A DNA stretch of 43,912 nucleotides from a virus. The stretch spans positions 1 to 43,912 of the IMG/VR virus record IMGVR_UViG_3300044612_000631. One strand, given 5' to 3'. A program made the position numbers and the translations under genes. A model generated the notes under the pieces. That model was not told where the DNA came from, ran no database searches, and saw nothing but the letters and a program-made list of their open reading frames with translations. Position 1 is the first letter of the stretch. The number at the start of each line of letters is the position of its first letter. Shown piece by piece: positions 672 through 43,686 of this stretch.

Positions 672-693
672 GTAACGATTCAGGAGAACATAT

Positions 694-1065: not shown

Positions 1066-1076
1066 GGTCATCTTAG

Positions 1077-28504: not shown

Positions 28505-28514
28505 TGATACTTCT

Positions 28515-28949: not shown

Positions 28950-29005
28950 GTGAACAACACAGTCGCAATTATAAGAGTACCGAGTATGAACATTACTTTT
29001 ATCAT
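28946..29005 (-). CDS. 19-residue membrane micro-ORF
   Basis: This tiny frame encodes MIKVMFILGTLIIATVLFT, essentially one hydrophobic helix. Its ATG overlaps the RusA stop (ATGA), and its TGA overlaps the ATG of the nuclease gene (ATGA). It therefore fills the gap between the two genes exactly and explains how the nuclease is translated without a ribosome site. It may be a functional membrane peptide or simply a translation relay. Confidence 0.6.
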   Translation of the reverse strand: MIKVMFILGTLIIATVLFT

Positions 29006-29358
29006 GCCTTCTCCAAATACAGACAAACGATTTGTTTGTCGTCTGTGTACGCCACGCCATTCAAGGCATCAAGTACAGCCTTAGCGTAGTTGTCAATGTC
29101 GCCAGTCAACTTTCCTTTCGGCTGGTCAATATTAACATTTGGTTGAACTGGTTCGATAAAGAGTTCCGTTCCATGAACGGTGAACGCAAGTTTGACCGAC
29201 AGTAATTCAGTCTCGTAAAGAGGGCCGTCATACATTTCAGCAAACTCTTGCTCATACTTCAATGTCTCCTTTGGTGTGTACGCATGACCAGTCTTGGTCA
29301 CTCGTGGTCTGCCTTTCGCCTTTGGGCGAAGGGAAATTATCTGATGGAACTTGTTCAT
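29002..29358 (-). CDS. rusA: RusA-type Holliday junction resolvase
   Basis: The 118-residue protein has the RusA signature. An N-terminal RPKAKGRPRV is followed by YTPKET, then GDIDNYAKAVLDALNGVAYTDD (D87, D89, D97, D106, D107), which supply the metal-binding acidic residues. RusA dimers resolve branched DNA in phage recombination and replication. It overlaps the primase gene by 4 bases and is part of the replication operon. Confidence 0.9.
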   Translation of the reverse strand: MNKFHQIISLRPKAKGRPRVTKTGHAYTPKETLKYEQEFAEMYDGPLYETELLSVKLAFTVHGTELFIEPVQPNVNIDQPKGKLTGDIDNYAKAVLDALNGVAYTDDKQIVCLYLEKA

Positions 29359-30254
29359 GGTCTAAATGCTCCTGTTGTGTCAATGCCGTAAATGTCTTCA
29401 ACTATCTTCACTAATTGTTCTATGCCATCGGCACGATTGTGGAACTTACCCCAACGCTTATCAGCATCAACAAGAATTGTGTAGGCATGGTTTATTGGTG
29501 TTCCATACTCCCTCATCTTGTGAACCAACAAGCAAAGAATGTTTGACCTATCGAGATTTCCAATTGGACCATTACGCCAGACGGTTGCAATATAAGGTGA
29601 AACATAATCAAGTGCCTGCTGTACATCTAGTCGTACTGAAGACATTTCAAGAGATACTTTCCTGCGTGGCTTGTGAAGTTCTGCAAGAGGTCGTAAGAGG
29701 TTCACATCAACCTTTGATTCTTGAGCGCTATCCAAGAACTGCTTTAATGTCATTGGCGCATCATCTTGCTTGAACAACATGTACCTATTCTCTGGCATTT
29801 CGTTTATACCGTTTGGATACGGCAAGCGAACATAGTTACCTAAGCCTGTTGCTTCTTCCTGCTTGGGGTTTACCTCTTTGGCTGGTAGTCCAATCACTTC
29901 ATGTGCCGACAAGAATGCTCGGCGCATGATTGGTGCTGGAACCCAGTCGTCAGCAAACACCCACACGTGGTAGCCACGACGAGTTTTCTCTACGAATGAC
30001 GAAATACTTTTCATGGCAAATGCCACCTGAAGATTTCGTGCTGAGTCAAGGTCGTCAATGTCAATATCAGTACACCCCCAACGGACAGTTGAGTTGTCCG
30101 TCAGAGGGTAGATACCAACTAGTTCCTCACCGTAAAGGTGTCTAGCAAATGTTGAGTAAGCAACATCAGCCTTGACTGAACCACCCTCCCATGTGCCATA
30201 AGCATCAGTACGACCACCAAACAGAGACATGAATGTTTCAATTGCATCATTCAT
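29355..30254 (-). CDS. Archaeo-eukaryotic-type primase
   Basis: The 299-residue protein contains the primase-polymerase motifs: a metal-binding DID at 63-65 (GCTDIDIDD), TRRGYHVWVF at 91-100 with the motif II histidine (H96), and EVNPKQ then LGNYVRLPYPNG (127-149). This matches the small AEP primases related to the TOTE-associated family. It would make primers for leading or lagging synthesis. It overlaps the helicase gene by 8 bases, the usual primase-helicase pairing. Confidence 0.85.
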   Translation of the reverse strand: MNDAIETFMSLFGGRTDAYGTWEGGSVKADVAYSTFARHLYGEELVGIYPLTDNSTVRWGCTDIDIDDLDSARNLQVAFAMKSISSFVEKTRRGYHVWVFADDWVPAPIMRRAFLSAHEVIGLPAKEVNPKQEEATGLGNYVRLPYPNGINEMPENRYMLFKQDDAPMTLKQFLDSAQESKVDVNLLRPLAELHKPRRKVSLEMSSVRLDVQQALDYVSPYIATVWRNGPIGNLDRSNILCLLVHKMREYGTPINHAYTILVDADKRWGKFHNRADGIEQLVKIVEDIYGIDTTGAFRP

Positions 30255-31275
30255 AAAGGTTTCCCTGCTGATATTGAAGAGGCAACGCTCCGTTCAGGTC
30301 AGTCAGTCTTCCTGTGCGTGGGTCTAACTCAAAGTCAATGTCGTCAACAAGTTGTCCTGCTGGTCGCTTGTTCTTGAGTAGTGACACGGTGACTGTGTGT
30401 TCATGGATTCGAGCCTCATGACGCAGATAATCCAATCTGTCCTGTGCTCGCTCTGAGTGTGAACGGTCAAGTTTCTCAATCAGTTCATTTATCTCCGCAG
30501 CAATTTGATACTTCTTGCGACGGACACCAATGATTGATGTTGCTTGTTGTTCACCACCATACGAACCTGAACTCATGGTCATCTTCTTCCCATCAGCACC
30601 TGCGGTGCGTGATGTTTGGTGTAGCACCAACATTGGAATGTCATGACGCCGACCAAACCCTTTGAGGAATGTCGCTTTGTCGGGTACGGTTTCGCCTGCT
30701 TCTACCAAATCTAGATAGTCAACGACTATAAGTTCAGGTACTTGACCCCACACATCACACACCTCGTTGTAGGCACGTTCCATGTCGGATGAAGTTAGTG
30801 GCTGGTCAAACACGGCAAGATGAGGAAAGTCTTCCTCTGCTGTACGGCGTAGCAAGTCAATGGCTTCTTTATCATCGGCTGCTACTCGTGCTTCCAGTTC
30901 TCGTGCATCAATTCCATGATGCATACAGGCGAGTTTGGTCAATACGAGTTGGCGAGGCTCGTCAGGTATGAACATTGCAATGTGTTTGTCACGATTGTTG
31001 CGGAGTGTGTGCAACAGTAAGAGTGTCTTACCGCCGTGTGCAAACCCCAACATCATGGCAATTTCGCCCGGTGCAATGCCTCGTAGTTCTTTATCTATCT
31101 GGTTGATACCAAGATGTACACGGTCTTGCGGTGACTGTGCCCAACGCACGAATGAGTCGGCTGCTTCCGAAAGTGGTGTGTACATTCTGTAGTCAGAAAG
31201 AGAAGGTGGGGCGACAGCGGATTGTCGCCCCACCATTTCCCAACCAGCAGATATTTCTTCTGCTGACAGTCTCAT
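30247..31275 (-). CDS. DnaB-like replicative helicase
   Basis: The 342-residue RecA-fold ATPase has Walker A GFAHGGKT (77-84), Walker B LIVVDYLDL (182-190) and the HQ motif at 219-220, as in the C-terminal domain of DnaB. The N-terminal primase-binding domain of bacterial DnaB is missing or greatly reduced, normal for compact phages. It would unwind the fork beside the adjacent AEP primase. Confidence 0.85.
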   Translation of the reverse strand: MRLSAEEISAGWEMVGRQSAVAPPSLSDYRMYTPLSEAADSFVRWAQSPQDRVHLGINQIDKELRGIAPGEIAMMLGFAHGGKTLLLLHTLRNNRDKHIAMFIPDEPRQLVLTKLACMHHGIDARELEARVAADDKEAIDLLRRTAEEDFPHLAVFDQPLTSSDMERAYNEVCDVWGQVPELIVVDYLDLVEAGETVPDKATFLKGFGRRHDIPMLVLHQTSRTAGADGKKMTMSSGSYGGEQQATSIIGVRRKKYQIAAEINELIEKLDRSHSERAQDRLDYLRHEARIHEHTVTVSLLKNKRPAGQLVDDIDFELDPRTGRLTDLNGALPLQYQQGNLYE

Positions 31276-31715
31276 TACTTGGCTCGTGGTGGCCAGTAAG
31301 CCTTCTCAGCATCTACTGCCTTGAAGGAAGGTCGCTTTGGATTTGCTTCCAAACCGTCACGGTTGTCGTACACCTTGCTTACACCATCACGCTTGCACGC
31401 TTTGATGAGCCACTCTGGAATTGGACCGTGTTGCTTGCCAACAATGGTTACACCTGTGAATGGTGCTGGGCTTGCTGAAGTCACAACTTGTGTTGCACCC
31501 AACTCTTCCTTGATTTTCTCAACGATGTAGTTGTTCTGCTCAATTGCTGTTGCTTCTGCCTGTGCACCATAGATGGTTTCCATCATGATGTTGTTGATTG
31601 AATCAAACAAGAGTGCGAACTCACCGAGTTTCTCGGCTGTGCCTGCGCTCTTGTCTACTAAGTCAGCGGAAATCTTTGCTGACACTTGGGTGATGATTGC
31701 TCTGTCCTTATCCAT
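31275..31715 (-). CDS. Hypothetical replication-operon protein, 146 residues
   Basis: Helical N-terminal half (AEKLGEFALLFDSINNIMMETI) and a C-terminal part with GPIPEWLIKACKRDGVSKVYD. It lies between the Cas4-like nuclease and the helicase, coupled to the former by TAATG. It may be a single-strand-binding or recombination mediator by position, but no fold is identified. The ATG at 31715 has a GAGGC ribosome site. Confidence 0.65.
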   Translation of the reverse strand: MDKDRAIITQVSAKISADLVDKSAGTAEKLGEFALLFDSINNIMMETIYGAQAEATAIEQNNYIVEKIKEELGATQVVTSASPAPFTGVTIVGKQHGPIPEWLIKACKRDGVSKVYDNRDGLEANPKRPSFKAVDAEKAYWPPRAK

Positions 31716-32584
31716 TAGTTTGCCTCCTCGGCATTTGTTGTGTCGCTCCCAATTAGAGAGCCTTTGCATTTTGACCAGACTGGACACCAACGCTGTGAGC
31801 AGAGGTGATGCTGGTCGTTCATGAGCCATCGTTGTGATGGCAAATGACCTTGTGCCAATAGTACGCTATTGACGAGTGCTGTTGTCTGAGTTGTAATCCA
31901 ATTGTCATGTTCTTCTGTGCGTGTCACGTTCACTATCTGACCGGTTGATGAAGCATTACGAATCATCACACCAAAGTTGAAGTTCACTGTGTAATCAATC
32001 AACCCAAGTCGGGTTGCAGCGCAAGCGTAAACAGACGACTGAATGTTCTGTGATTGCTTCTCGGCTTCGTAATACTTTCGAGCCGCAGTCTTCCAGTCCC
32101 AAATGCTTTCGGGGTGAAAGTAATCCATTGTGCCTTCGTACCAAAGTTCGTACTGCCACAAAGAGTTCTCCACCTCGGCAACCTTTGCCTCAAACTTGAA
32201 CTCAGGTTGTCCACCTAGAGGAACATGGGGGTAGATATCCCTAGCCCATGCTTCCGCCATAGATGCAATGTGTTTGTCCCAGTTCTTCGGGTCTGTGTTG
32301 GTGATGTTGATTTCCTTGCCCTCAGCAAGTAGGTGTTGTTCCTTGGAACGAAACGCCCACACCGAGCGTTCTGCAATGTCTCGCACATCAATCTCTTCAC
32401 GCAGGACATTTTCAATACCAGCGTGGACTGCTGTACCCATCATTGCTGAGTCGTTCTCACGACGCTCTTCGGGGTAAAGGGCTGTCAGCCTTGCACGTTC
32501 AGGACACATGAGTGCGTCCCCAAGCCAAGACTGTCGGACATAAATCCTGTCCACTGATGTTCCATTATCGTTTTCTATTCGCAT
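31715..32584 (-). CDS. Cas4/RecB-like nuclease with iron-sulfur cysteines
   Basis: The 289-residue protein has the PD-(D/E)XK residues H54 (GTAVHAG), D154 (EGTMDYF) and D163-W-K165. Cysteines C27 and C262, C267, C273 are spaced as in the Cas4 4Fe-4S site. Phage relatives act as 5'-3' exonucleases in recombination. There are no other CRISPR genes here. The ATG at 32584 with AGAGAAG is preferred to an upstream start that runs through the leader hairpin. Confidence 0.82.
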   Translation of the reverse strand: MRIENDNGTSVDRIYVRQSWLGDALMCPERARLTALYPEERRENDSAMMGTAVHAGIENVLREEIDVRDIAERSVWAFRSKEQHLLAEGKEINITNTDPKNWDKHIASMAEAWARDIYPHVPLGGQPEFKFEAKVAEVENSLWQYELWYEGTMDYFHPESIWDWKTAARKYYEAEKQSQNIQSSVYACAATRLGLIDYTVNFNFGVMIRNASSTGQIVNVTRTEEHDNWITTQTTALVNSVLLAQGHLPSQRWLMNDQHHLCSQRWCPVWSKCKGSLIGSDTTNAEEAN

Positions 32585-32610
32585 TGCTTCTCTTTTCTGT
32601 GATGTAAGTG

Positions 32611-32637
32611 AGCACCTGTCGCCCATTGGCGACGGTG
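32611..32637 (-). other. Leader hairpin before the nuclease-primase operon
   Basis: On the leftward strand, CACC-GTCGCC, loop AATG, GGCGAC-A-GGTG forms a 10-bp stem with one bulge, just upstream of the Cas4-like gene. It may stabilise the transcript or regulate translation. Confidence 0.5.
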
Positions 32638-32649
32638 CGGAAGTGTGTG

Positions 32650-32668
32650 CCCCCCCCTTTCCCCCCCC
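32650..32668 (-). other. G8-A3-G8 tract in the leader (G-quadruplex candidate)
   Basis: The rightward strand reads C8, TTT, C8; the leftward transcript would read G8-AAA-G8. Each run can supply two G3 tracts, enough for an intramolecular quadruplex. It lies between the palindrome at 32708 and the first gene of the replication operon. Long homopolymer runs are also prone to sequencing error. Confidence 0.55.
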
Positions 32669-32707
32669 ATTGTGGCAGACAATGAGAGGGAAGTCTGGGG
32701 TGGTTGT

Positions 32708-32729
32708 AAGTGAGATAGTTATCTCAGTT
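32708..32729 (-). promoter_or_regulatory. 22-bp palindrome, copy 1
   Basis: Reads AAGTGAGA-TAGTTA-TCTCAGTT on the rightward strand, one mismatch from the common palindrome. It lies two bases beyond the transglycosylase stop and upstream of the nuclease-primase operon. On the rightward strand six T follow it. Confidence 0.75.
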
Positions 32730-32731
32730 TT

Positions 32732-33151
32732 TTATAGACCCCACGGACCAAATCCGTTGCCATATCGGGCGTCTGCATAGTTGTAAATAGCAAGTGCTGA
32801 CCTCAGGTTGCGCTGAGGACCAAAGAGCCCTCCAGAACGCTTCACAATGCCTCTAGAAGCCAGCCACGGCGTCCAGAAGCCATTGATTTGCACCAAGCCC
32901 CTAGAACCACCCATTGGGTCGTCTGTGTTGTGCTGAGCAGGGTCACACCTGCTCTCACGCCACATCAGATAATCCAATGTCGGTAGTAGCGACTCACGCC
33001 AACCTACATCAACAGCGGTTTGCCACCACTGAGGACACAGGGCAGAGGCAGAAATATCCACCGGCTCTGGCATGTCGTGCTTCGTAATAGAAGTGGGGGG
33101 CACAACGCCCCCCACACCTAATGAAACTGAGATAAGTATTTTTGCTAACAA
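32732..33151 (-). CDS. Lytic transglycosylase-like protein with signal-like N-terminus
   Basis: The 139-residue protein matches the SLT lysozyme fold. It has YLMWRESRCDP (catalytic E66), GSRGLVQIN (82-90) and an AIYNYADARYGNGFGPWG C-terminus. The first 20 residues are hydrophobic, so it may be exported. It would cut glycan strands. Its place in the leftward block rather than with the endolysin is unusual; it could remodel the wall early or be a virion protein. The TTG start at 33151 has an AGGGGG ribosome site. Confidence 0.8.
   Translation of the reverse strand: MLAKILISVSLGVGGVVPPTSITKHDMPEPVDISASALCPQWWQTAVDVGWRESLLPTLDYLMWRESRCDPAQHNTDDPMGGSRGLVQINGFWTPWLASRGIVKRSGGLFGPQRNLRSALAIYNYADARYGNGFGPWGL
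33093..33115 (-). other. Strong hairpin inside the transglycosylase gene start
   Basis: A perfect 9-bp stem GTGGGGGGC / GCCCCCCAC with a 5-base loop lies about 36 bases downstream of the TTG start. It could slow ribosomes or polymerase and so limit expression. Confidence 0.55.
33125..33146 (-). promoter_or_regulatory. Half-site of the 22-bp palindrome
   Basis: The left half AACTGAGATA is intact, but the right half is degenerate (TTTTTGCT). It lies within the first codons of the transglycosylase gene. It may be a weak or decayed copy, or a chance match. Confidence 0.3.
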
Positions 33152-33154
33152 GTG

Positions 33155-33376
33155 TTACCCCCTTAGTGCTTCCAATAGGACTTCTTCCATCTCTTGCTTT
33201 GCAGATAGAAGTTCTTCCAACTCAGCATGAGTTGAGTCGGCTCTCTTACCATCACCGAGACGCTGGGTTTTCTTTGCCAGTTGGTCTACGCCGATAGCCA
33301 GAGACTTGACGACAGCACGTAACTCAGAAAGAGTTAGTGTCACCTCAAGGGTTGGTTCATCTTTGCGATTACTCAC
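33155..33376 (-). CDS. 73-residue charged helical protein
   Basis: Mostly helical and charged (LSELRAVVKSLAIGVDQLAKK, AELEELLSAKQEMEEVL). Likely coiled coil. It overlaps the upstream gene by 4 bases and is followed four bases later by the transglycosylase. Function unknown. Confidence 0.65.
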   Translation of the reverse strand: MSNRKDEPTLEVTLTLSELRAVVKSLAIGVDQLAKKTQRLGDGKRADSTHAELEELLSAKQEMEEVLLEALRG

Positions 33377-33900
33377 GGTAGTTGCCTTTCATTCTGAATA
33401 GATGCTGATTTCATTGCACGAACAATGTCGTACATGTCTTGCATGGCACTTGCTAATGAGCCCATTGCGTTACCTTCGTCGTATGTAACGGCTTCTTCGT
33501 CCGTAAATCGGATAGAAGAACCCATTTTTCCGTTGTGGCACATTGTCATGAGACGCACACGCCTACGCTCAGGGTGTTGTGATGGTGCAATCTCATCTGC
33601 ATCATCTCCCTTCTTGATTGGTGCAGCCCAACCACAAGTAACAACAGCAAAGCCATTGTAACCAGAGTCAAACAACAACACAGCGTTGAATGTGTCGTCA
33701 AGCATTTCGTACACATCAGCATGTTCTGCAATCTTTCTGATTGCTGGAACTTCACCACGAACATAATCAACAGCAAATAATATTGCGTTGCCTAGGTCAA
33801 ATGGTTCTGTTGTGTCGCTTTCTACTTTGCTTGCTATTGCTTGGTCAATCTCTTGCAGAGTTTGTCCAAACTTTTCTGAATAGTTGATTGGTGTGTTCAT
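33373..33900 (-). CDS. Hypothetical 175-residue protein
   Basis: Mixed alpha/beta protein with FDLGNAILFAVDYVRGEVPAI and a conserved-looking NGFAVVTCGWAAP core. No motif is recognised. It is coupled by 4-base overlaps to WhiB upstream and to the coiled-coil gene downstream. Confidence 0.65.
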   Translation of the reverse strand: MNTPINYSEKFGQTLQEIDQAIASKVESDTTEPFDLGNAILFAVDYVRGEVPAIRKIAEHADVYEMLDDTFNAVLLFDSGYNGFAVVTCGWAAPIKKGDDADEIAPSQHPERRRVRLMTMCHNGKMGSSIRFTDEEAVTYDEGNAMGSLASAMQDMYDIVRAMKSASIQNERQLP

Positions 33901-34148
33901 TTCTTTTTATTCTTTCTGTAGTCGGCTTTGCCGTTGGTTAGTGTTATTCCACCCCAAATGCCCCATGAGTTGGTTGCCTTGCCGTAAGCGAGGCACTCAA
34001 CTTTTAGTGAGCATTCAGAGCAAATTGCTTTTGCTTGCTTCCATTCTTTCATTTTCTGTTTGGTTGGTGGCCATTCTGGAAACCACCACACAGTTGGCTG
34101 AGACTTACAGTTTGCTTCTGTAAAGTCTATCGTCACAGGCTCAAACAT
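33897..34148 (-). CDS. whiB: WhiB-family iron-sulfur transcription regulator
   Basis: The 83-residue protein has four cysteines (C14, C43, C46, C52), ICSECSLKVEC as the CxxCxxxxxC core, the GIWGG turn at 63-67, and a Lys-rich DNA-binding tail. WhiB proteins bind a 4Fe-4S cluster and the host sigma factor. They are found only in actinobacteria and their phages, which makes this gene the best evidence for the host. It could redirect host transcription or block superinfection. Confidence 0.92.
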   Translation of the reverse strand: MFEPVTIDFTEANCKSQPTVWWFPEWPPTKQKMKEWKQAKAICSECSLKVECLAYGKATNSWGIWGGITLTNGKADYRKNKKK

Positions 34149-34674
34149 CTGAGCCTGCTGTCAATCGGTTCTGAATAACCCTGAGCACTTTCTCCGCAAT
34201 CTCGTTAGAAAGATTGCTAGTCATTGACTCAACTTTCTCATTGACCAATTCTCTAACGAATGATGCGCTCACTGTTTCACCAATGTTCACCTGTACTTGA
34301 TTGTTCACCATGTTTCTGAAACGGTTGTTGTTCATGAGGTGGCGAAGAAACGCTTCGTTCTCCCACAACGGTGCTGTCAAGTCAATGAGTTGCTGATAAT
34401 CAAGGTTGCTACCAACCTCACTAATTATCTGTGAGTAGTCAATGCTTTCCAGAACCCAGTTACGCACCTTGCGTGTGTATTCCCGGTCTTCTTTGATGTT
34501 CTCAGACACATCATCAACAACCATCTGTAAGTTTGGGATACGACCGTTTACTTGTCGTTCCACTTCCTCAATGATTTGTGTTTCCATTGACTGACTGAAT
34601 AGTGATGGCATTGAGGCACTGTCTACAGATACCTCAAATTCCATTGTTGATGGGATTAGTTTGATTGTTGTCAC
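34141..34674 (-). CDS. Hypothetical 177-residue helical protein
   Basis: Helical, acidic at the N-terminus, with NNNRFRNMVNNQVQV and a C-terminal amphipathic helix. The GTG start at 34674 overlaps the previous stop as GTGA and has an AAGGAG site. It precedes whiB with an 8-base overlap. Function unknown. Confidence 0.65.
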   Translation of the reverse strand: MTTIKLIPSTMEFEVSVDSASMPSLFSQSMETQIIEEVERQVNGRIPNLQMVVDDVSENIKEDREYTRKVRNWVLESIDYSQIISEVGSNLDYQQLIDLTAPLWENEAFLRHLMNNNRFRNMVNNQVQVNIGETVSASFVRELVNEKVESMTSNLSNEIAEKVLRVIQNRLTAGSDV

Positions 34675-34820
34675 TTGCTTTCTCCTTGTGTGTTTGTTTC
34701 TGTTTTGAGTGAGTCAGGAATGAGGTCATCAAATGTGACTTCATTCAGTCGGATATTGTTTTGTGCAAACCCTCGCTGAAATGCAGCGAGGTAGTATGCG
34801 TACCGCTCTTCTTGGTTCAT
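34671..34820 (-). CDS. 49-residue hypothetical protein
   Basis: Begins MNQEERYAYYLAAFQRGF and has an AGGAGA ribosome site. It starts seven bases after the amidotransferase-like gene ends. The stop overlaps the next gene as GTGA. Probably a real small gene; no family is recognised. Confidence 0.65.
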   Translation of the reverse strand: MNQEERYAYYLAAFQRGFAQNNIRLNEVTFDDLIPDSLKTETNTQGESK

Positions 34821-34827
34821 GTTTCTC

Positions 34828-35838
34828 CTAGTTGTAACTTGGGTGTGTGGTTGTTTGAGTTGGAATGACTACGGCATTGGCTTCGTAGATATCCTCATTG
34901 AATGCTTCCAAATCGTAGATTTGGTAGATGGCTGACCAACATGCACATGGATACTGAGCACCACAGAAGTGGCAACCACCGCATTGGTCACAGTGTGTTT
35001 CTAGAACACCATCTGGTGTCTTGTGTGCGTGAGCACAGTTGTAACACTCAATGAGTTGTGTGGTGTCATCAATGTGAGTAGTGAACACATCGAACTGTTG
35101 CATCTGCTCTTCTGCAAGATACTCAAGTTCATCGTCGTAGTCAGGAATGTACAAGCCTGCATCAGTCTTGTTGTCCCACGACGAAGCGTATGTGGTCTTG
35201 TTGTAGCCATAGTCCCAGTCGTCGTAACCCCAAAGACTGCCACTTGACTTGTATGAAGTGGAAGTGTAGGGCTTGTAAACAACTTGCTCGTATGAGTAGT
35301 TAGACCACCACATGTCCTTGTCCCAGTGACCAGACTTCTCGTTGAGAATATACCAGTCTTGCTTGGCTTCATCATTGACGGTGAGGAATACCAACTTAGA
35401 ACCAGTAGCCCATGCTTCTAGTTTCTTGTAGTACTCATCATCATCAAGTGATGTGATGCCACCAACACTAGGCATGATGTCTTGCGCAAACACTTTTGTG
35501 TCCGAACGCACATCACCCTTTGGTATTGCTACTGGAAGTATGCCGTTGTGACCAACGACTGATTGGCTGTCTTTGCCCAAGAAGAATGGGTGACAGTTGG
35601 CAACAGTCTCGCTACCGTGGGTTGCCCAACGGAAGTGGAAGATTGCAGGACCATTGTGTGTTGGTCGCAAGTCAATGAACTTGTTTGCAACATCATCAAA
35701 GTTCATGCTGTGATAAGTCACAATCTTCTTGCCTGTTGATATTGCGAAACCAAAGCCATCTGGATTTGCTTTCGCTGCTGTCCTGAACCTGTCCATGTCT
35801 GGAGAGACATAATCAGGAATGAATGTTAGTAAACACAT
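34828..35838 (-). CDS. Class II glutamine-amidotransferase-like protein with C-terminal Cys module
   Basis: The 336-residue protein begins with the nucleophile Cys2 (MCLLTF). It shows NPDGFGFA (25-32), FHFRWATHG (67-75), NCHPF (81-85) and VVGHNGIL (94-101), the motifs of Ntn-hydrolase glutamine amidotransferases. Residues 180-250 are Tyr/Trp/Asp-rich. A Cys-rich module follows (C265, C268, C283, C286, C289, C292, C298, C300). It would release ammonia or cut a gamma-glutamyl bond for the neighbouring amidoligase. That pairing is known for the amidoligase family. Confidence 0.82.
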   Translation of the reverse strand: MCLLTFIPDYVSPDMDRFRTAAKANPDGFGFAISTGKKIVTYHSMNFDDVANKFIDLRPTHNGPAIFHFRWATHGSETVANCHPFFLGKDSQSVVGHNGILPVAIPKGDVRSDTKVFAQDIMPSVGGITSLDDDEYYKKLEAWATGSKLVFLTVNDEAKQDWYILNEKSGHWDKDMWWSNYSYEQVVYKPYTSTSYKSSGSLWGYDDWDYGYNKTTYASSWDNKTDAGLYIPDYDDELEYLAEEQMQQFDVFTTHIDDTTQLIECYNCAHAHKTPDGVLETHCDQCGGCHFCGAQYPCACWSAIYQIYDLEAFNEDIYEANAVVIPTQTTTHPSYN

Positions 35839-35886
35839 ATTGTGTTCCTTTCTTTGTTTGTTGTTTGTTGATTTGTGATGTTAGGA

Positions 35887-35908
35887 AACTGAGATACATG
35901 TCTCAGTT
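35887..35908 (-). promoter_or_regulatory. 22-bp palindrome, copy 2
   Basis: AACTGAGA-TACATG-TCTCAGTT. It overlaps the amidoligase stop codon and lies 49 bases upstream of the amidotransferase-like start, giving that gene its own element. Confidence 0.8.
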
Positions 35909-36961
35909 GTCGTCACCGTGAGAAGAGCAACGCTCTGCGATACGGTCAGACAGAATGGAATAACGCTCTTGCGTCTTGACCCATGAACGGAATGAACGGA
36001 ACGCCAAAGCGTTGCCAGACATAACTCTCTGAGTGTTGCACTCTGTCTCGGTGTAAGTGAAGACTGCATCACAGAACTGCAAAGCAGCCTGAACAGTCTT
36101 AGGGTTGAGTGATGGCTTGAAGAAACGCAACTCAACAGTGTGGCGGTTCTGCAAGTTCACAGCACAGTAACGCTCGTGGTTGCGTTCCTCGTTCTTAGCG
36201 AACTTCATCAACGAGGAAGTTGTACGAGTGACATAGTTGCCATCGTCGTTGTACTCATTCCATGAGTTGAGGAAATAAGCCTTGTCAAAGTTAGCCCAAC
36301 GCTCGCTGTCACGACCTGCGAAACGCTTCACATCTGCAGAGTTATCAAGTATCAACTTGAAGAACTTGAATAGATGCTTTTCGTCTCGGAATGCAGAGCG
36401 TGACAAGTGAACATGCAGACCACATGTGCTTGTGTCCCACGACTTGCAACCTTTCTTGATTAGACCAGAGATACCGTTCCAATCAAAGTGATTAGTTGCA
36501 AAGCCCAATGTCATTGGATGCGAAACAATCTCGAACCCATGATTGAGTGAGCCATCTTCTTTGAGATACACAACATCATTGTGTTGCGTGTTGATTGTCT
36601 CAAGCACAAAGCGTGCACAATCTTCACGAGGGAAACGACCTGTCTCCAACTCCAACTCAAAGCCCATGTACAAAGATGTACGGCGTGAGTTGGCACTGTC
36701 GGGAACAGTTGCGTAGTACGACTTGTGACCGTCGTCGTTGAGGAAGATTGCAGTTGGCTTGGCAGAGTAAGACATAATCAAACTCTCGCTTTCCTCATCT
36801 TCCTCGTTCTCCACTTCCATTTCGCAGACGAAATCCTCATTGCAACCGCAACAGCGGTAATTGCTGTCCCAATCGTTGCTATAAGCGTCGTCTTGCTCTA
36901 TTGTGTCACCACAGTTGTAGCACTCAATATATGTTGTATCTTCTTCTTCACTTGCAGGCAT
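35903..36961 (-). CDS. Putative amidoligase with N-terminal Cys module
   Basis: The 352-residue protein matches the Amidoligase_2 (COOH-NH2 ligase) family: GFELELE (100-106), KEDGSLNHGFEIVSHPM (134-150), CGLHVHLSR (180-188) and AVNLQNRHTVELRFF (267-281). These are the ATP/metal-binding blocks of a glutamine-synthetase-like fold. A zinc-ribbon-like module (C14, C17, C37, C38, C40, C46) precedes it. The family joins an amine to a carboxylate, so peptide or cell-wall modification is plausible; the substrate is unknown. The ATG at 36961 has a near-perfect AAGGAGG site, although the frame stays open to 37060. Confidence 0.85.
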   Translation of the reverse strand: MPASEEEDTTYIECYNCGDTIEQDDAYSNDWDSNYRCCGCNEDFVCEMEVENEEDEESESLIMSYSAKPTAIFLNDDGHKSYYATVPDSANSRRTSLYMGFELELETGRFPREDCARFVLETINTQHNDVVYLKEDGSLNHGFEIVSHPMTLGFATNHFDWNGISGLIKKGCKSWDTSTCGLHVHLSRSAFRDEKHLFKFFKLILDNSADVKRFAGRDSERWANFDKAYFLNSWNEYNDDGNYVTRTTSSLMKFAKNEERNHERYCAVNLQNRHTVELRFFKPSLNPKTVQAALQFCDAVFTYTETECNTQRVMSGNALAFRSFRSWVKTQERYSILSDRIAERCSSHGDDN

Positions 36962-36990
36962 GATGCCCTCCTTGTTTGTTGTTTGTTTAT

Positions 36991-37057
36991 GTGTCCCACA
37001 GCCTAAGCCGTAGGCGAGAATGCACCAATGTATGGGGGACACCGATGCACTCTCGCC
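36991..37057 (-). other. Structured leader with possible pseudoknot before the amidoligase
   Basis: In the leftward transcript, bases 37057-37044 pair with 37026-37013 as a 14-bp stem with two G-U pairs. The 17-base loop contains GTGTCCC (37042-37036), which is complementary to GGGACAC (36997-36991) downstream. That could form a pseudoknot just upstream of the ribosome site. A competing CCTA/TAGG hairpin also exists. Confidence 0.5.
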
Positions 37058-37063
37058 CACGCA

Positions 37064-37085
37064 AACTGAGATACATGTCTCAGTT
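37064..37085 (-). promoter_or_regulatory. 22-bp palindrome, copy 3
   Basis: AACTGAGA-TACATG-TCTCAGTT, with one extra matching base on each side. It lies 14 bases past the previous gene's stop and about 100 bases upstream of the amidoligase start. Confidence 0.8.
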
Positions 37086-37099
37086 TGTATGAGCGTTGC

Positions 37100-37276
37100 T
37101 CACGCAACTTGTTCTGCGTTCACATCACCTGCTTTCTGCAATGCAAACTCTAACAGTCTGCGTTGGTAATCTCGTTCTTCTTGTGACTGATTGTATGCCT
37201 TGACCATCTTCCATGCGAACTCAACGAGTTCATCTTTCTTCATTGCATACAGGGCTTGCTTGCTTGTCTTATTCAT
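37100..37276 (-). CDS. 58-residue hypothetical protein
   Basis: Starts MNKTSKQALYAMKKDELVEF; charged and helical with a QEERDYQRRLLEFALQK helix. The ATG overlaps the previous stop (ATGA) and an AGAAG site precedes it. The family is not recognised. Confidence 0.65.
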   Translation of the reverse strand: MNKTSKQALYAMKKDELVEFAWKMVKAYNQSQEERDYQRRLLEFALQKAGDVNAEQVA

Positions 37277-37419
37277 TTCTTCTCCATTTCTTCTGTTAGT
37301 TCTGCAATTTGCTTGAGCAGACGCTTGTTCTCTTCTTGCAACAACTGAATGTCAGTCTCTGCATTGTCTAGTGTTGCTCTGATTTGCTTGAGTTGCATCT
37401 TGATGTAACTACTTGTCAT
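37273..37419 (-). CDS. 48-residue coiled-coil protein
   Basis: A leucine-rich coiled coil (LLQEENKRLLKQIAELTEE) fills the C-terminal half. The ATG at 37419 has an AGGAGAA site and overlaps the previous stop as ATGA. A 14-residue upstream extension is open but has no ribosome site. Confidence 0.65.
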   Translation of the reverse strand: MTSSYIKMQLKQIRATLDNAETDIQLLQEENKRLLKQIAELTEEMEKK

Positions 37420-37637
37420 TTCTGTTCTCCTGTTGTGTATGTTTCTGCTTTTCCATTGCAATCATCTGGCTGAACAACGCCAGTGATTGCGTACAAACTG
37501 CCGAACTTGCTCATGAGATAGTAGTTGTACTTGTCATCAGTCAAGAGATTGCCCTGAAGCATCATCTTTGTGATGAAGAACCAACTGTCCCCCCAGTTCT
37601 TGCCGTTTCGATAGTGTTGTTTGATTTGCTGTTTCAT
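37416..37637 (-). CDS. 73-residue hypothetical protein
   Basis: Starts MKQQIKQHYRNGKNWGDSWFF, rich in aromatic and polar residues. It is the first gene after the palindrome at 37677 and begins a three-gene chain joined by ATGA overlaps. Function unknown. Confidence 0.65.
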   Translation of the reverse strand: MKQQIKQHYRNGKNWGDSWFFITKMMLQGNLLTDDKYNYYLMSKFGSLYAITGVVQPDDCNGKAETYTTGEQK

Positions 37638-37676
37638 GTCTGTTTCTCTTTCTGTTTGTGTGTTTATGTGTAGTGG

Positions 37677-37698
37677 AAGTGAGATAACTATCTCAGTT
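37677..37698 (-). promoter_or_regulatory. 22-bp palindrome, copy 4
   Basis: AAGTGAGA-TAACTA-TCTCAGTT, one arm mismatch, overlapping the stop of the membrane gene at 37693 and 40 bases upstream of the ATG at 37637. Confidence 0.75.
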
Positions 37699-37848
37699 CC
37701 AGTCCTTGTTTGTTGGGTGATTACGCATTACCCATTGACGAGACATGTGCATATCTCGCTCTGCTTTCTCGTAGCCGTACTCAAATGCAAAGCCCCACAC
37801 AAGTAGGACAACAATGAGTGCAGTTGTAAATAAGCCGAACCAATTCAT
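37693..37848 (-). CDS. 51-residue single-span membrane protein
   Basis: One hydrophobic helix near the N-terminus (LFTTALIVVLLVWGFAF) is followed by a charged tail ending RNHPTNKDWN. Its ATG overlaps the end of the preceding gene. Its TGA lies within the palindrome. It could be a superinfection or membrane-stress protein; no family is recognised. Confidence 0.65.
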   Translation of the reverse strand: MNWFGLFTTALIVVLLVWGFAFEYGYEKAERDMHMSRQWVMRNHPTNKDWN

Positions 37849-38063
37849 TAGATACTCCATTCTTGATTAGGAAAACGAGGTGTTACGCCTACATCTTCTT
37901 TGCTAATACGCTTCTCAATAGTAACAATGTCAGTGAATTGGTCAAGCAAAGCAAGAACTTCTGCAAGTTCATCTCTCTTGTTGATTATCTGTGAACGCAA
38001 ATCGTAAGCACGATTACTTAGTGCCTCAAATGTGTCCTTGTTCTTACGGAATGGATTACGCAT
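37848..38063 (-). CDS. 71-residue coiled-coil protein
   Basis: Helical and charged (FEALSNRAYDLRSQIINKR, ELAEVLALLDQF). An AGAGGTAAAG site precedes the ATG. First gene after palindrome copy 5 and a long leader hairpin. Function unknown. Confidence 0.65.
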   Translation of the reverse strand: MRNPFRKNKDTFEALSNRAYDLRSQIINKRDELAEVLALLDQFTDIVTIEKRISKEDVGVTPRFPNQEWSI

Positions 38064-38115
38064 TTCTTTACCTCTTTCGTTTGTATGTATATCTGCTCAC
38101 ACTGTGTGAACATGA

Positions 38116-38149
38116 CGCAACACTATGCAGGGGGCTACATAATGTTGCG
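38116..38149 (-). other. Long leader hairpin after palindrome copy 5
   Basis: The leftward transcript folds CGCAACATTATG against CATAGTGTTGCG, 12 bp with one U-G pair, around a loop containing CCCCC. It lies between the palindrome at 38170 and the ATG at 38063, a layout like the amidoligase leader, whose loop also has CCCCC. Confidence 0.6.
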
Positions 38150-38169
38150 CTAACTCACACAAGAGTTAG

Positions 38170-38191
38170 AACTGAGATAAGTGTCTCAGTT
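38170..38191 (-). promoter_or_regulatory. 22-bp palindrome, copy 5
   Basis: AACTGAGA-TAAGTG-TCTCAGTT. It overlaps the stop codon of the gene at 38190 and lies about 107 bases upstream of the next start. Confidence 0.8.
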
Positions 38192-38654
38192 ATTTCATGT
38201 ACTTGATTACTTCCTGCAGTTGCTTCTTGGTGTACTTCTTGCTCAATGCTTCTGCAGTACGCTTAGCCGAGAAACGGCTAGTGGACTTAGCATTTGCACG
38301 CTGTCCCTCACCGCTCATCATTGCCTTGACGCTTGCCCAAGTTGCGTAGGTGTATTCTTTCTCGCAAGCAATGATTACATTGTCAATGCTCTTGTACTTG
38401 CTCAATGCACGGAGTGCGATTGAGACATTGGTGCGAATGGTGCTGTCGCTGTTGCGTGCTTGACTAGCAACACTTGACGACAATGATGCCTTTGCATACT
38501 CACTTGCATTTACGCCAAGTGTCTTTGCTTCTGCACCTGCACCTAACCAACCTCGCACAACATCTGCCGACCCATTGAGAATGAGTGGCTCGTGCACAAG
38601 ACGGAACTTAGTTACTATCTTCTTGCTTGCTTGCTTCTTTACTTGCTTTGCCAT
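38190..38654 (-). CDS. Basic 154-residue hypothetical protein
   Basis: Lys-rich ends (MAKQVKKQASKK, KKYTKKQLQEVIKYMK) surround a helical core (SADVVRGWLGAGAEAK). The charge suggests nucleic-acid binding. The gene lies between two palindrome copies, so its product is one candidate for a regulator of those sites; there is no direct evidence. The ATG at 38654 has an AAGGAG site. Confidence 0.65.
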   Translation of the reverse strand: MAKQVKKQASKKIVTKFRLVHEPLILNGSADVVRGWLGAGAEAKTLGVNASEYAKASLSSSVASQARNSDSTIRTNVSIALRALSKYKSIDNVIIACEKEYTYATWASVKAMMSGEGQRANAKSTSRFSAKRTAEALSKKYTKKQLQEVIKYMK

Positions 38655-38725
38655 GATGGCTCTCCTTGTGTTTGTATTTGTGTTAGTCGGTAACACGCCG
38701 AGTGATTACTCACTAGCCAAAGCAC

Positions 38726-38747
38726 AACTGAGATAACTGTCTCAGTT
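38726..38747 (-). promoter_or_regulatory. 22-bp palindrome, copy 6
   Basis: AACTGAGA-TAACTG-TCTCAGTT, about 70 bases upstream of the ATG at 38654 and 22 bases past the stop of the preceding gene. Confidence 0.8.
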
Positions 38748-38769
38748 ATGCGTTGGTACTAAGTAACAA

Positions 38770-38925
38770 CTAATGCTTATTGCAACACTCATTGGTGCAA
38801 ACGCTTGCGTCATACCAACTTGTGTCTTCATGAGTGCGTCGTGCGATAATGCGAACAACTGCACCATTCACACGCACACCCAAACGATTACAACGCTCAA
38901 TGTATTCACGCATTGCATCACTCAT
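38770..38925 (-). CDS. 51-residue Cys-containing protein
   Basis: Starts MSDAMREYIERCNRLGVRV and ends SVCTNECCNKH. Cysteines at 12, 43, 47 and 48 with a terminal His suggest metal binding. An AGGTAGG ribosome site precedes the ATG. It is the first gene of the long leftward array, just downstream of the direct-repeat region. Confidence 0.65.
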   Translation of the reverse strand: MSDAMREYIERCNRLGVRVNGAVVRIIARRTHEDTSWYDASVCTNECCNKH

Positions 38926-38990
38926 AGGCTTACCTACCTTTGTTAGTCAAGCACCGTTCTTATCGGCGCACCATTGTTTCACTAATGGCA

Positions 38991-39052
38991 TGGGCTCATT
39001 ATTGGTTCTACGCATTGGGCGCATTATTGCCAGTGTTTGGGCGCATTTGTTC
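38991..39052. repeat. Three iteron-like direct repeats in a noncoding region
   Basis: TGGGCTCATTATTGG (38991), TGGGCGCATTATTGC (39016) and TGGGCGCATTTGTTC (39038) are spaced by 25 and 22 bases. The whole stretch 38926-39185 has no gene. It also holds a CCATT/AATGG inverted repeat (38971-38986) and G-rich runs near 39065-39085. It may be an origin or the main leftward promoter region. Confidence 0.5.
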
Positions 39053-39158
39053 TGAAGACACAAGGGGGAGGTAGGGTGGGGGTGCACCCGTCAACACAAT
39101 GGATGGATTCATGTCGTAGCCGTACAGACCAATTTCTAAAAAGGGGGTGGGGATAGAT

Positions 39159-39178
39159 AAAAAGGGTACCTTTCCCTT
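39159..39178 (-). terminator. Probable leftward terminator after the DUF6321-like gene
   Basis: On the leftward strand AAGGG, loop AAAGGTA, CCCTT is followed by more T. It starts 8 bases beyond the stop codon at 39186, so it would end the two-gene transcript starting at 39609. The stem is only 5 bp, so the strength is moderate. Confidence 0.6.
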
Positions 39179-39185
39179 ATTTTTA

Positions 39186-39449
39186 TTAGCAATCCCACTT
39201 TTTTAGGGCTAGTGCCTTGCGGGTTGGTCTACCCTTAGAGTCCTTCATAGGCCCCGGCATGCCGCTCATGCGTGCACAAAACGATTTACGACGTGCTGCG
39301 GACTTGGGTGACTTCTTTGCTTGTTTGGCTGAAACTGGCGGTTTTAGGGTGCCACCAGTTTGCTTCTTATAGGAAGCCCGACCCTTGGCATTGAGACCAC
39401 CTTCAGGGTTCTTCCCTTCTTTGCGTTGCCATGCTGCGGTCTTAGCCAC
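39186..39449 (-). CDS. DUF6321-like basic protein, 87 residues
   Basis: Contains AWQRKEGKNPEGGLNAKGR, TGGTLKPPVS and RRKSFCARMSGMPGPMKD, then KGRPTRKALALKKWDC. This conserved small phage family is widespread in aquatic phages and has no proven function. The GTG start at 39449 overlaps the preceding stop by 8 bases and has an AAGAGG site. Confidence 0.82.
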   Translation of the reverse strand: MAKTAAWQRKEGKNPEGGLNAKGRASYKKQTGGTLKPPVSAKQAKKSPKSAARRKSFCARMSGMPGPMKDSKGRPTRKALALKKWDC

Positions 39450-39609
39450 GACTCGACCTCTTTACAGCAGCGTTGTCAACAAGGTTCGGGTAAGGGCGAC
39501 CAGCCTTTTTGGCTCGTGCTTTAGCAGCGGCTTTTTGAGCAGGAGTAAGAGGGGTTGATTTCTTGTTTGGATTCTTCGTATTCCAAAATGCTGTTTTTCC
39601 TGATGCCAT
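39442..39609 (-). CDS. 55-residue basic protein
   Basis: Starts MASGKTAFWNTKNPNKKSTP and has KKAGRPYPNLVDNAA near the end. The type is often found beside DUF6321-like genes in aquatic phages, as far as I recall. A GGGAAGAG ribosome site precedes the ATG. It is the first leftward gene from the divergent control region. Confidence 0.7.
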   Translation of the reverse strand: MASGKTAFWNTKNPNKKSTPLTPAQKAAAKARAKKAGRPYPNLVDNAAVKRSSRG

Positions 39610-39646
39610 TTCTCTTCCCTTGAACTTGTGTCTTCAGCCTACTTGG

Positions 39647-39673
39647 CAACCTTCGCTCTAAGGAGCGAGGTTG
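39647..39673. other. Hairpin in the divergent control region
   Basis: CAACC-T-TCGCTC, loop TAAG, GAGCGA-GGTTG: 11 bp with one bulge. No T-run follows on either strand, so a terminator is not supported. It may be a control or packaging signal. Confidence 0.55.
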
Positions 39674-39688
39674 AACAGTTCTGTCCTT

Positions 39689-39712
39689 CCCCCCATCCCT
39701 ACCCTTCCCCCC
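39689..39712 (-). other. Canonical G-quadruplex motif
   Basis: The leftward strand reads G6-AA-G3-TA-G3-AT-G6, four G runs of three or more with two-base loops. The 171-base gap 39610-39780 between the divergent early and late blocks contains this motif plus two inverted repeats. Confidence 0.7.
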
Positions 39713-39741
39713 ACTCGTTACATAACTCTTAGTGAGCATGG

Positions 39742-39758
39742 AACCACTGTGAGTGGTT
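39742..39758. promoter_or_regulatory. Inverted repeat upstream of small terminase
   Basis: AACCACT-GTG-AGTGGTT is a perfect 7-bp inverted repeat, 22 bases before the small terminase ATG. It could be an operator or the site recognised by small terminase itself. Function not shown. Confidence 0.5.
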
Positions 39759-39759
39759 G

Positions 39760-39779
39760 TAACGGAATGGCTTATTACC
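39760..39779 (+). promoter_or_regulatory. Variant of the TAACGAA-TGGGC motif at the late-block start
   Basis: TAACGGAATGGCTTATTACC directly precedes the small terminase ATG. No stop codon is used here, so this copy again argues for a real motif. Confidence 0.35.
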
Positions 39780-39780
39780 A

Positions 39781-40215
39781 ATGAAACAGAACGAAGAACT
39801 CACGCTTACATCACAGCAGCAGGAATATCTAGAGTGGCTTTGTACTGCTCCGTCGGAGCGTCAACCATCCTCAAAAGAAAAGATGGCAGGACACCTTGGC
39901 GTTAATGTCACAACGCTCCGCCGTTGGGAAAAGAAGGAAGTCTTCGTCAACCAATGGAAAACGGCGGTGGACGAAGTTCAGGGGTCTCCTGAGCGCACTC
40001 AGAGACTCCTAGACACGTTGTATGCCAAGGCTCTTGACGGTGATACCAAGTCTGCGCAGTTGTATCTGCAGGCAACGAACCGTATGGCTCCGCCTACGGT
40101 AACGGTTCAGTCTAATAAGAAAGCAGCAGAACTTTCTGATGCTGAGTTGGACTCTTTGATTGCTGCGGTAGCGGAGCGAGAGAAGGCTCAACGCACACAC
40201 TTGAAGGCATTGTGA
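39781..40215 (+). CDS. Small terminase subunit, complete
   Basis: The 144-residue protein has an N-terminal helix-turn-helix of the homeodomain phBC6A51 type (LTSQQQEYLEWL, then SKEKMAGHLGVNVTTLRRWE at 31-50). An oligomerisation-like helical middle and an acidic/basic C-terminus (SDAELDSLIAAVAEREKAQ) follow. It would bind the packaging site and feed DNA to large terminase. This is the first rightward gene after the divergent region and defines the missing part of the gene at 1-230. Confidence 0.82.
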   Translation: MKQNEELTLTSQQQEYLEWLCTAPSERQPSSKEKMAGHLGVNVTTLRRWEKKEVFVNQWKTAVDEVQGSPERTQRLLDTLYAKALDGDTKSAQLYLQATNRMAPPTVTVQSNKKAAELSDAELDSLIAAVAEREKAQRTHLKAL

Positions 40216-40352
40216 GTTTAGTCGAATGCCCAGAGTGTGGCGAAGAGTATCCACCTGTGGCAACACATTGGATTTGTCCAGCGTGCGGCATTGATGATAA
40301 ATCACAGCCGAAGATGGCGGTGTTTGAATTGAGGGATTATGGCGACAACTAA
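40212..40352 (+). CDS. 46-residue zinc-ribbon protein, right version
   Basis: Same protein as 227-367. The GTG start and the GTGA overlap with the upstream stop are kept, while the internal ATG of the left version is replaced by TTA. Cysteine pairs are unchanged. Confidence 0.7.
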   Translation: MSLVECPECGEEYPPVATHWICPACGIDDKSQPKMAVFELRDYGDN

Positions 40353-40656
40353 CGATGCGATGTTTAGCGCTCTTTCGGTAGCGTATCCGTCGACCGGTCA
40401 GACCCTTGGTGACTTGCTGTATGCGTTCTGGTCTGAGAAGGGTTTGCAGTATCGTGGGACTTTGGAGTATGAGTTCTATGTAGCGAACGGTGCTACTGGC
40501 ACAACTTTGGGTGATTTGGCAAATGATTACTTTTCACGGGTTTACCCGTTGGAGTTTGACATACAGAACTTTGATTTCTCTGACCCTGATGAATGGTTGG
40601 AGTTACAAGTATTTAGCCGTGTTGATACGGTTGAACAAGATATTTTTATTGGTTAG
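40339..40656 (+). CDS. Hypothetical 105-residue protein, right version
   Basis: Homologue of 354-671 with changes such as SALSVAYPSTGQ near the start and LQVFSRV near the end. Many of the base differences are synonymous, which shows the two versions have evolved under purifying selection rather than being sequencing noise. Confidence 0.7.
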   Translation: MATTNDAMFSALSVAYPSTGQTLGDLLYAFWSEKGLQYRGTLEYEFYVANGATGTTLGDLANDYFSRVYPLEFDIQNFDFSDPDEWLELQVFSRVDTVEQDIFIG

Positions 40657-40678
40657 GTAACGATTCAGGAGAACATAT

Positions 40679-41050
40679 ATGGCAACTTTTACAAAACTCG
40701 CACTTCAACCAGCAGGCACAACGGGAACAGGTCTTGGCATCAAGGTCGCTGCTACTGCAACTGCTGGTACCGCTATTCACACAGCGTCAGCAACAGCAAC
40801 AACCATTGATGAAATCTGGTTGTATGCAGTTAACTCTTCTGCTTCAGATGTGAAGTTGACAATTGAGTGGGGCGAAGCAACTGCACCAGATGGCAACATC
40901 GAATACACGGTTAAGGCTGAGAACGGTTTATATTTGATTGTTCCGGGTCTTTTGTTGCAAGGCAACGCTACTGCCAAGGTTGTTAAGGCGTTTGCTGCAA
41001 CCACAAACGTTATTGTGATTCACGGGTACGTTAACCGCATCACAGCGTAA
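40679..41050 (+). CDS. Ala/Thr-rich structural protein, right version
   Basis: Nearly identical at the protein level to 694-1065 (two visible substitutions, T to S and R to K) despite several silent changes. Confidence 0.7.
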   Translation: MATFTKLALQPAGTTGTGLGIKVAATATAGTAIHTASATATTIDEIWLYAVNSSASDVKLTIEWGEATAPDGNIEYTVKAENGLYLIVPGLLLQGNATAKVVKAFAATTNVIVIHGYVNRITA

Positions 41051-41061
41051 GGTCATCTCAG

Positions 41062-41967
41062 ATGCCTTCCTTTATTAGAAACACATCAGGTGGTAAAGCC
41101 ATCAGCGGTGGTTCGTTGGCTCCACGTTCACGCCGTGGTAACACTGACCAAGTTAATTCTTACTGGTCTGGCAGTAGTGTTGTTCAATTTGTTACCGACT
41201 ATTTAGTGCTTGCAGGTGGTGGTTCAGGCGGTTCACAGCGTGGCGGTGGTGGTGGAGCAGGTGGATTCCGTACATCTGCAGGAACTACTGGTGGTGGTGG
41301 TGCAGCAGAAGCATCTTTAACACTTGATGTTGGAACCCCATATAGCGTGCAAGTCGGTGGTGGTGGTAGTGCATCAAGCGGTACTAACTCTATATTCAGC
41401 ACGATTACTGCTACTGGTGGTGGTCGTGGTGGAAACAACACAACTGGTATTGAAGGTGGCTCTGGTGGTGGTGCAGGAGGAAACAGCAATACTGCTGGAG
41501 AACGGACAGCATCTCCAGTTCAAGGTTTTGCAGGGCGAACTGGAAACGACAATGTTAGCGGTGGCGGTGGCGGTGCTGGAAGTGGCACTGGTGTAAATAA
41601 AGACGGGGGAACAGGTCTGGCATCATCAATTACTGGTTCATCTGTGAACTATGCAGGTGGCGGTGGTGGTGGTTCAAATAGTGGTTATATTCCGGGATTG
41701 GGTAATGCTTTTGGTGGTGCAGACGGCGGCGGTGGAGGTGACGGAGGTTTAGAAGGAACAGGTGGTAAAGGCGGAGGCGGTGGTGGTCGTGGCGGTAACG
41801 CTTCTGGCAACGGCGCAAACGGTGGTAGCGGTGTTGTTATCTTGCGTTATCCCGATAGCAGAACAATTACTATTGGCGCTGGTCTTACTGGGTCTGAAAG
41901 TGCTGCATCGGGTGGATTCAAACGAGCAACAATTACTGCTGGCACTGGAACTGTGAGTTGGGCATAA
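41062..41967 (+). CDS. Glycine-rich tail adhesin-like protein, right allele
   Basis: The 301-residue protein shares its first 30 or so residues and the ending (TAGTGTVSW/F) with the allele at 1077, and differs almost throughout the glycine-rich part. It lacks the longer segment seen in the left allele. Gly-rich blocks include GGGGGAGGFR and GGGGGGSNSG. Such a pattern suits a receptor-binding tip under diversifying selection. Confidence 0.75.
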   Translation: MPSFIRNTSGGKAISGGSLAPRSRRGNTDQVNSYWSGSSVVQFVTDYLVLAGGGSGGSQRGGGGGAGGFRTSAGTTGGGGAAEASLTLDVGTPYSVQVGGGGSASSGTNSIFSTITATGGGRGGNNTTGIEGGSGGGAGGNSNTAGERTASPVQGFAGRTGNDNVSGGGGGAGSGTGVNKDGGTGLASSITGSSVNYAGGGGGGSNSGYIPGLGNAFGGADGGGGGDGGLEGTGGKGGGGGGRGGNASGNGANGGSGVVILRYPDSRTITIGAGLTGSESAASGGFKRATITAGTGTVSWA

Positions 41968-42317
41968 TGGCACATTACGCATTTTTAGATGAGAACAATG
42001 TTGTCACGGAAGTCATTGTTGGCATTGACGAAACAGAATTGATTGAAGGTTTGCCACCAGAGGAATGGTACGGAAACTTTCGTGGTCAAGTTTGCAAACG
42101 CACTTCATACAACAACAACATTCGCAAACAATATGCAGGTATTGGTTTCACTTATAATTCTGATGCTGATATTTTTATTGCACCACAACCATATCCATCT
42201 TGGTCTTTAGATAGTAATTATGATTGGCAGTCACCATCAAGTTTTCCTACAGATGGTGAGGCTTATTATTGGGATGAGGAATCATTATCATGGGTTCCAT
42301 TTCCAGACGCTGGATAA
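41967..42317 (+). CDS. Hypothetical tail-associated protein, right allele
   Basis: The 116-residue homologue of 2069-2404 has a different C-terminus (YYWDEESLSWVPFPDAG). It overlaps the surface protein gene directly by 28 bases, because no sulfotransferase gene lies between them. An in-frame ATG nine bases upstream (41958) would give three extra residues, but the TAATG-coupled start matches the left version. Confidence 0.7.
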   Translation: MAHYAFLDENNVVTEVIVGIDETELIEGLPPEEWYGNFRGQVCKRTSYNNNIRKQYAGIGFTYNSDADIFIAPQPYPSWSLDSNYDWQSPSSFPTDGEAYYWDEESLSWVPFPDAG

Positions 42318-43669: not shown

Positions 43670-43685
43670 CGATTGGGGCTATTAG
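43667..43685 (+). promoter_or_regulatory. TAACGA-TGGGGC motif, right version
   Basis: TAACGATTGGGGCTATTAG, the counterpart of 4227-4245. The motif's ends are kept while the middle differs by an insertion/deletion-like shift. Confidence 0.4.
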
Positions 43686-43686
43686 C

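Follow-up and report, generated by a model that had tools for sequence, protein, structure and literature searches.

Dispersed palindromes in the early genes of uncultured phages are putative DNA operators of a phage-encoded 154-residue protein

The window analysed here, the whole 43,912-nucleotide stretch of the IMG/VR virus record IMGVR_UViG_3300044612_000631, carries six copies of a 22-bp palindrome along its leftward genes. We propose, with a probability of about 60%, that they serve as dyad-symmetric DNA operators for a single regulator encoded by the phage, a 154-residue protein predicted to be all helical, whose gene (38190..38654, - strand) is the first one after site 1. In related phages the sites are conserved in place, they change in concert with the gene for this protein, and sites and gene occur together. 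Positions 1-4230 and 39781-43912 of the window represent one region in two diverged copies (96% identity for 1-300 versus 39986-40285, 74-94% further on). Several relatives measure 39.3-40.0 kb, and the window accordingly appears to hold a single complete, permuted genome together with about 4.2 kb from a strain variant. The only pointer to the host is a WhiB gene, which suggests an actinobacterium.

A pattern search of the window found the palindromes at 32708, 35887, 37064, 37677, 38170 and 38726, just where the original prediction had placed them, with 0.29 copies expected by chance and six copies reached in none of 100 shuffles. The pattern AACTGAGA-N6-TCTCAGTT is matched exactly at four of the six sites, those at 32708 and 37677 differ from it by one base (AAGTGAGA), and no further copy is present in the window at up to three mismatches. 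All are listed here on the - strand, from right to left. Site 1 (38726..38747), which reads AACTGAGACAGTTATCTCAGTT in the transcript direction, lies at the tip of a long RNA hairpin, 71 nt before the start of the putative regulator gene. Site 2 (38170..38191) overlaps the stop codon of that gene by 2 nt and precedes a 71-aa gene by 106 nt. At site 3 (37677..37698, one arm of which has AAGTGAGA), the palindrome and the stop codon of a 51-aa gene overlap, 39 nt before a 73-aa gene. Site 4 (37064..37085) is located 102 nt before an amidoligase-like gene, whose stop codon is overlapped by site 5 (35887..35908), itself 48 nt before a glutamine-amidotransferase-like gene. Site 6 (32708..32729, again with AAGTGAGA on one arm) lies 2 nt after a lysozyme-like gene and 123 nt before a PD-(D/E)XK exonuclease gene (start 32584). 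The overlap of three copies with stop codons and the spacing of 40-125 bases to the next start, both predicted earlier, were borne out, the measured distances being 39-123 nt. It had also been claimed that a TA after the left arm orients every copy. Although ...AGATA is indeed found on the + strand at all six, the ones at 32708 and 37677 carry TA in both arms, which leaves four that are asymmetric at this point.

All six sites are intergenic, although non-coding bases make up only 9.4% of the leftward region 27320-39780; six 22-mers drawn at random from this region would all have no more than 6 coding bases with a probability of about 4e-7, both figures being computed with the lysozyme-like gene shortened to a start at 33073. 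This start would leave an 81-nt gap without a site, and a TTG start at 33151 shrinks the gap to 3 nt. We adopted the latter since the reading frame from that TTG is conserved in relatives. With it, there is exactly one site in each gap of at least 40 nt below the 38770 gene, and the only other large gap, of 260 nt above that gene, has none. A half-site proposed at 33125 had to be discarded. It is coding sequence near the 5' end of the 32732-33151 gene, where a signal-peptide-like stretch (LLAKILISVSLGVGG) is encoded. In relatives the corresponding sequences are TTATTTCAG, TTATCTCAA, CTCATCTCAG and others, independently of the palindrome class.

Relatives were collected by a pattern scan of IMG/VR, which gave contigs with 2-6 copies, and by a scan with the amidotransferase-like protein, which gave 47 related loci, each of which was submitted to a de novo palindrome search. 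Single-site matches in other viral contigs were, by a rough estimate, near the number expected by chance. The gene pair encoding the amidoligase-like and class-II glutamine-amidotransferase-like proteins (34828-36961, - strand) is conserved in relatives with or without palindromes, and amidotransferase genes similar to that of the window occur in mycobacteriophages. The relatives do carry palindromes at the same places, but not the same palindrome: its sequence differs by clade (GAGAYA, GATAYYG, GATAGAY, TTGATAGACC and others) and is uniform within a genome, all copies changing together. Class A (AASTGAGAYA halves) comprises the window, G007, G008, G010 and G011; class B (AACTGATAYYG), G020-G027; class C (AACTGATAGAY), G019; class D (TTGATAGACC), G029 and G030; and class E (GTAAGACGGTCTTAC), G031, G032 and, with a variant, G036. 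Other palindrome sequences were found in G033-G037. A scan allowing three mismatches gave no further degenerate sites in class-A genomes.

The class-C genome G019 can be compared closely with G020 and G022 of class B, since their shared early genes are mostly 85-100% identical. At every one of the six sites G019 shows 4-6 differences, all within positions 9-14, versus 0-1 base difference per site between G020 and G022. Most site flanks are nearly identical in this comparison (at site 6, 60/60 bases downstream and 57/60 upstream); at other sites a different neighbouring gene makes some of the upstream flanks less similar. Between the window and G019, the flanks of site 5 are identical at 60/60 and 57/58 bases, and the site has three changes, two of which form a symmetric pair (positions 7 and 16). 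Changed sites in near-identical flanks indicate that the sites were altered one by one while their surroundings stayed as they were. Two genomes are mosaics, with sites B,B,B,A,A (G013) and B,B,A (G018); the B sites lie next to a B-type or B-like protein, and the A-type sites further down. The small genes between sites 2 and 4 (window 37100-38063 and counterparts) are swapped among close relatives while the sites stay, in the manner of a cassette-like exchange.

In the comparison of G019 with both G020 and G022, the 154-residue gene is the most diverged shared gene, with 40-41% identity versus about 77% or more for the other shared annotated genes, the swapped small cargo genes between the sites being left out of the count. 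Of the 23 palindrome loci in which the region is covered, 21 contain its family and the remaining two (L048 and L069) a second family together with a class-E palindrome, and both families are absent from all 12 palindrome-free loci; as several loci are near-identical, the independent co-occurrence events are fewer than these counts. Members of the family group by site class, with G007 as an awkward case: its sites are class A, yet its protein shares just about 50% identity with those of the other class-A genomes. It has T75, R82 and the WASVK stretch in common with them, and T75 is unique to class-A proteins, the diverged G007 included. Site class is also correlated with DUF6321, the terminase and the 31275 gene, presumably through shared ancestry, and among these class-correlated genes only that for the 154-residue protein separates class C from B as well. 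The 31275 protein looked class-specific (99% versus 62-69%), but between G019 of class C and G020 and G022 of class B its identity is 95-99%. Class AUC is highest for the DUF6321 gene (0.98, n=9), but this gene shows 95% identity for B versus C as well as for A versus G. As far as sequence comparison goes, it is the combination of these contrasts, and not class correlation alone, that makes the 154-residue protein the probable binder.

This protein has no match in Pfam, PHROGs, PDB sequences or cultured phages, and no relatives were found among about 85,000 bacterial and archaeal genomes. Its AlphaFold2 model, built from 18 sequences, is all helical and of middling confidence (pLDDT 73.9, pTM 0.61). 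In this model, helices 90-101 and 106-114 could be a helix-turn-helix. Helix 106-114 differs by class, reading ATWASVKAMM in A, ASWNSLKTLV in B and ANISDLRVFY in C. Fold searches with the model gave no informative match, whether to a DNA-binding fold or to any other known fold (best E 3.9 in PDB and 0.2 among viral models, Z up to 3.0 in a further comparison). Class-E phages have a different family of small basic proteins (two paralogues at 4942-6633 in L048, one at 1274-1696 in L069) with their different palindrome, so that both regulator and sites have apparently been replaced. The class-E protein, whose model is poor (pLDDT 58.5), was rejected as a homologue of the 154-residue family (hhalign probability 0.3%).

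The main rival explanation is that the 154-residue protein binds the palindromes as hairpins of mRNA leaders, for post-transcriptional control or antitermination, in the manner of N with boxB or of a coat protein with its operator hairpin. In each transcript a hairpin of 8 bp, its loop 6 nt long, would indeed stand right at gene ends, and further strong hairpins are predicted in the leaders. The leader of the putative regulator gene (38655..38772, - strand) forms a long interrupted hairpin with site 1 at its tip, and then a second hairpin (GTGTTA..TAACAC). Pairs of the site-1 outer stem covary (C-G/G-C/A-U, A-U/G-C, and U.G/C-G/both absent), one pair being present or absent as a unit. On the same strand, the leader after site 2 (38064..38169) has three tandem hairpins with similar folds in relatives, that after site 4 (36962..37063) a 23-bp hairpin (GCGTGGGCGAGAGTGCATCGGTGT...), and that after site 6 (32585..32707) two hairpins. 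These large hairpins are strong and conserved, with covariation at least at site 1, and have no match in Rfam. The change from class B to class C, which falls exactly within the 6-nt loop, would also suit an RNA ligand. However, within a genome all sites have one arm sequence, both arms changing together, and this sequence is thus fixed beyond what mere pairing would demand. Among 49 distinct sites, positions 4-8 are always symmetric and free of G.U, a count biased by a site finder that required both arms; at positions 9/14, C.A exceeds U.G by 17 to 4, and C.C persists at positions 3/20. The orientation of the would-be loop also reverses in relatives (CTTCGG/CCGAAG, TTGCGG/CCGCAA, CATGTC). The site-1 outer stem shows the opposite pattern, U.G/G.U being common and A.C nearly absent on the transcript strand. 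A class-E phage keeps this outer hairpin with another tip, so it appears to be a separate RNA feature. Going by these substitution patterns, the palindrome core seems to behave like a DNA dyad and the site-1 outer stem like RNA, and we regard binding to the RNA hairpins as unlikely. Marginally less probable again is a full RNA-level phage regulon, in which the 154-residue family would act on the leader-hairpin tips of six mRNA segments with clade-specific codes, and transcription or translation would be controlled through the tandem hairpins. This would amount to a multi-site system like N/boxB with a new protein family.

It is more doubtful still that each palindrome is the operator or activator site of its own promoter, with the genes as separately started units. 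The short distance of every copy to a start could fit this, and the left arm (CTGAGA/CTGATA/TTGATA) resembles a -35 box. However, no sigma-70-like promoter was found at any site (5 in the region versus 9.5 expected), even if host promoters could be atypical, and no conserved -10 box follows the sites in relatives. Site 1 lies within a transcribed hairpin and, if this is a functional RNA structure, transcription must enter from further upstream. Moreover, the amidoligase and amidotransferase genes nearly abut in palindrome-free relatives and are probably co-transcribed there. Of the operator or promoter regulon that had been put forward, the operator part is retained, with sites that are conserved in place and change with a phage gene, and the promoter part is not. 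The earlier remark that no T-run follows in the transcript direction holds at all sites, and no intrinsic terminator (hairpin then T-run) was found at them on the - strand.

A host regulator or WhiB-type factor as reader of the sites is very improbable: phage clades could infect hosts with different regulators and a phage WhiB is present, but the sites track a phage gene, no relative of the candidate binder was found in about 85,000 bacterial and archaeal genomes, and the WhiB and sigma-r4-like proteins, both rejected as binders, are near-identical when members of classes A, B and C are compared (AUC for site class 0.45 and 0.56). WhiB and the 154-residue protein had both been suggested for binding, and only the latter fits the change of the sites.

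If the palindromes are DNA operators, the 154-residue protein would act as a dimer, each subunit reading one half-site AASTGAGAYA. It would bind its own leader, and so be autoregulated, as well as five other gaps in the leftward row of early genes to which its gene belongs. An action on passing RNA polymerase is most likely, because the sites stand at gene ends in transcribed leaders and not at recognisable promoters. Bound protein may impede the polymerase at each gene boundary by roadblock or attenuation, and the early genes would be turned down in steps with feedback on the regulator's own gene. We favour such a 'stoperator'-like control of elongation, the last mechanistic step being one that we infer.

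A dispersed palindrome regulon of uncultured, freshwater-type phages gains in this way a candidate binder, whose family has no known relatives. A natural series is formed by at least six site codes and the proteins that match them, and in the mosaics G013 and G018 and in the G019/G020 pair the regulatory code has been exchanged at many sites. This makes it possible to test directly how operators and regulators co-evolve and what similar orphan palindromes, for instance those in phage Corndog, do.

Several known systems resemble this one in part. The SAS/ESAS of Cluster K mycobacteriophages recur upstream of part of the genes and some contain inverted repeats, and SAS is located at the translation start (PMC3203893), whereas the sites of the window lie 39-123 nt upstream of it, at the end of the previous gene. 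SPBRE of prophage SPbeta is a repeated intergenic 15-bp element in promoter regions, read by the master regulator MrpR, which has a tyrosine-recombinase fold and keeps lysogeny (PMC10516654). A repeated intergenic element with one phage-encoded regulator, here a candidate, is common to both, but the present element is 22 bp long and away from recognisable promoters. Corndog (Cluster O mycobacteriophages), which is not evidently temperate, has 34 copies of 17-bp inverted repeats, about a third of them inside genes; the intergenic copies are enriched in leftward genes and mostly not at promoters, and their binder and function are unknown (PMC4351075). Our sites are likewise dispersed dyads in leftward genes, away from promoters, but they number six, are all intergenic, and come with a candidate binder and clade-specific codes. 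In the temperate Cluster A mycobacteriophages (L5 Gp71, TipsytheTRex), a monomeric protein with HTH and Stoperator domains reads a 13-bp asymmetric stoperator present in more than 20 copies (PMC6550527, PMC9283540). As there, many copies of one site occupy short intergenic gaps of transcribed early genes, and the site diverges together with a phage-encoded, here candidate, binder, in Cluster A from one subcluster to another. Unlike the one-orientation stoperator, our site is a 22-bp dyad in six copies with centres reversed in relatives, and for the 154-residue protein no homology to solved structures, and no match in PDB, Pfam, PHROGs and fold searches, was detected. No tyrosine or serine integrase was found in 10 genomes, so a role in immunity is not indicated. 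Since site symmetry, copy number and protein family differ, we do not claim membership in the Cluster A or Corndog systems. By analogy, the system would work most like the Cluster A stoperators and looks most like the 17-bp repeats of Corndog.
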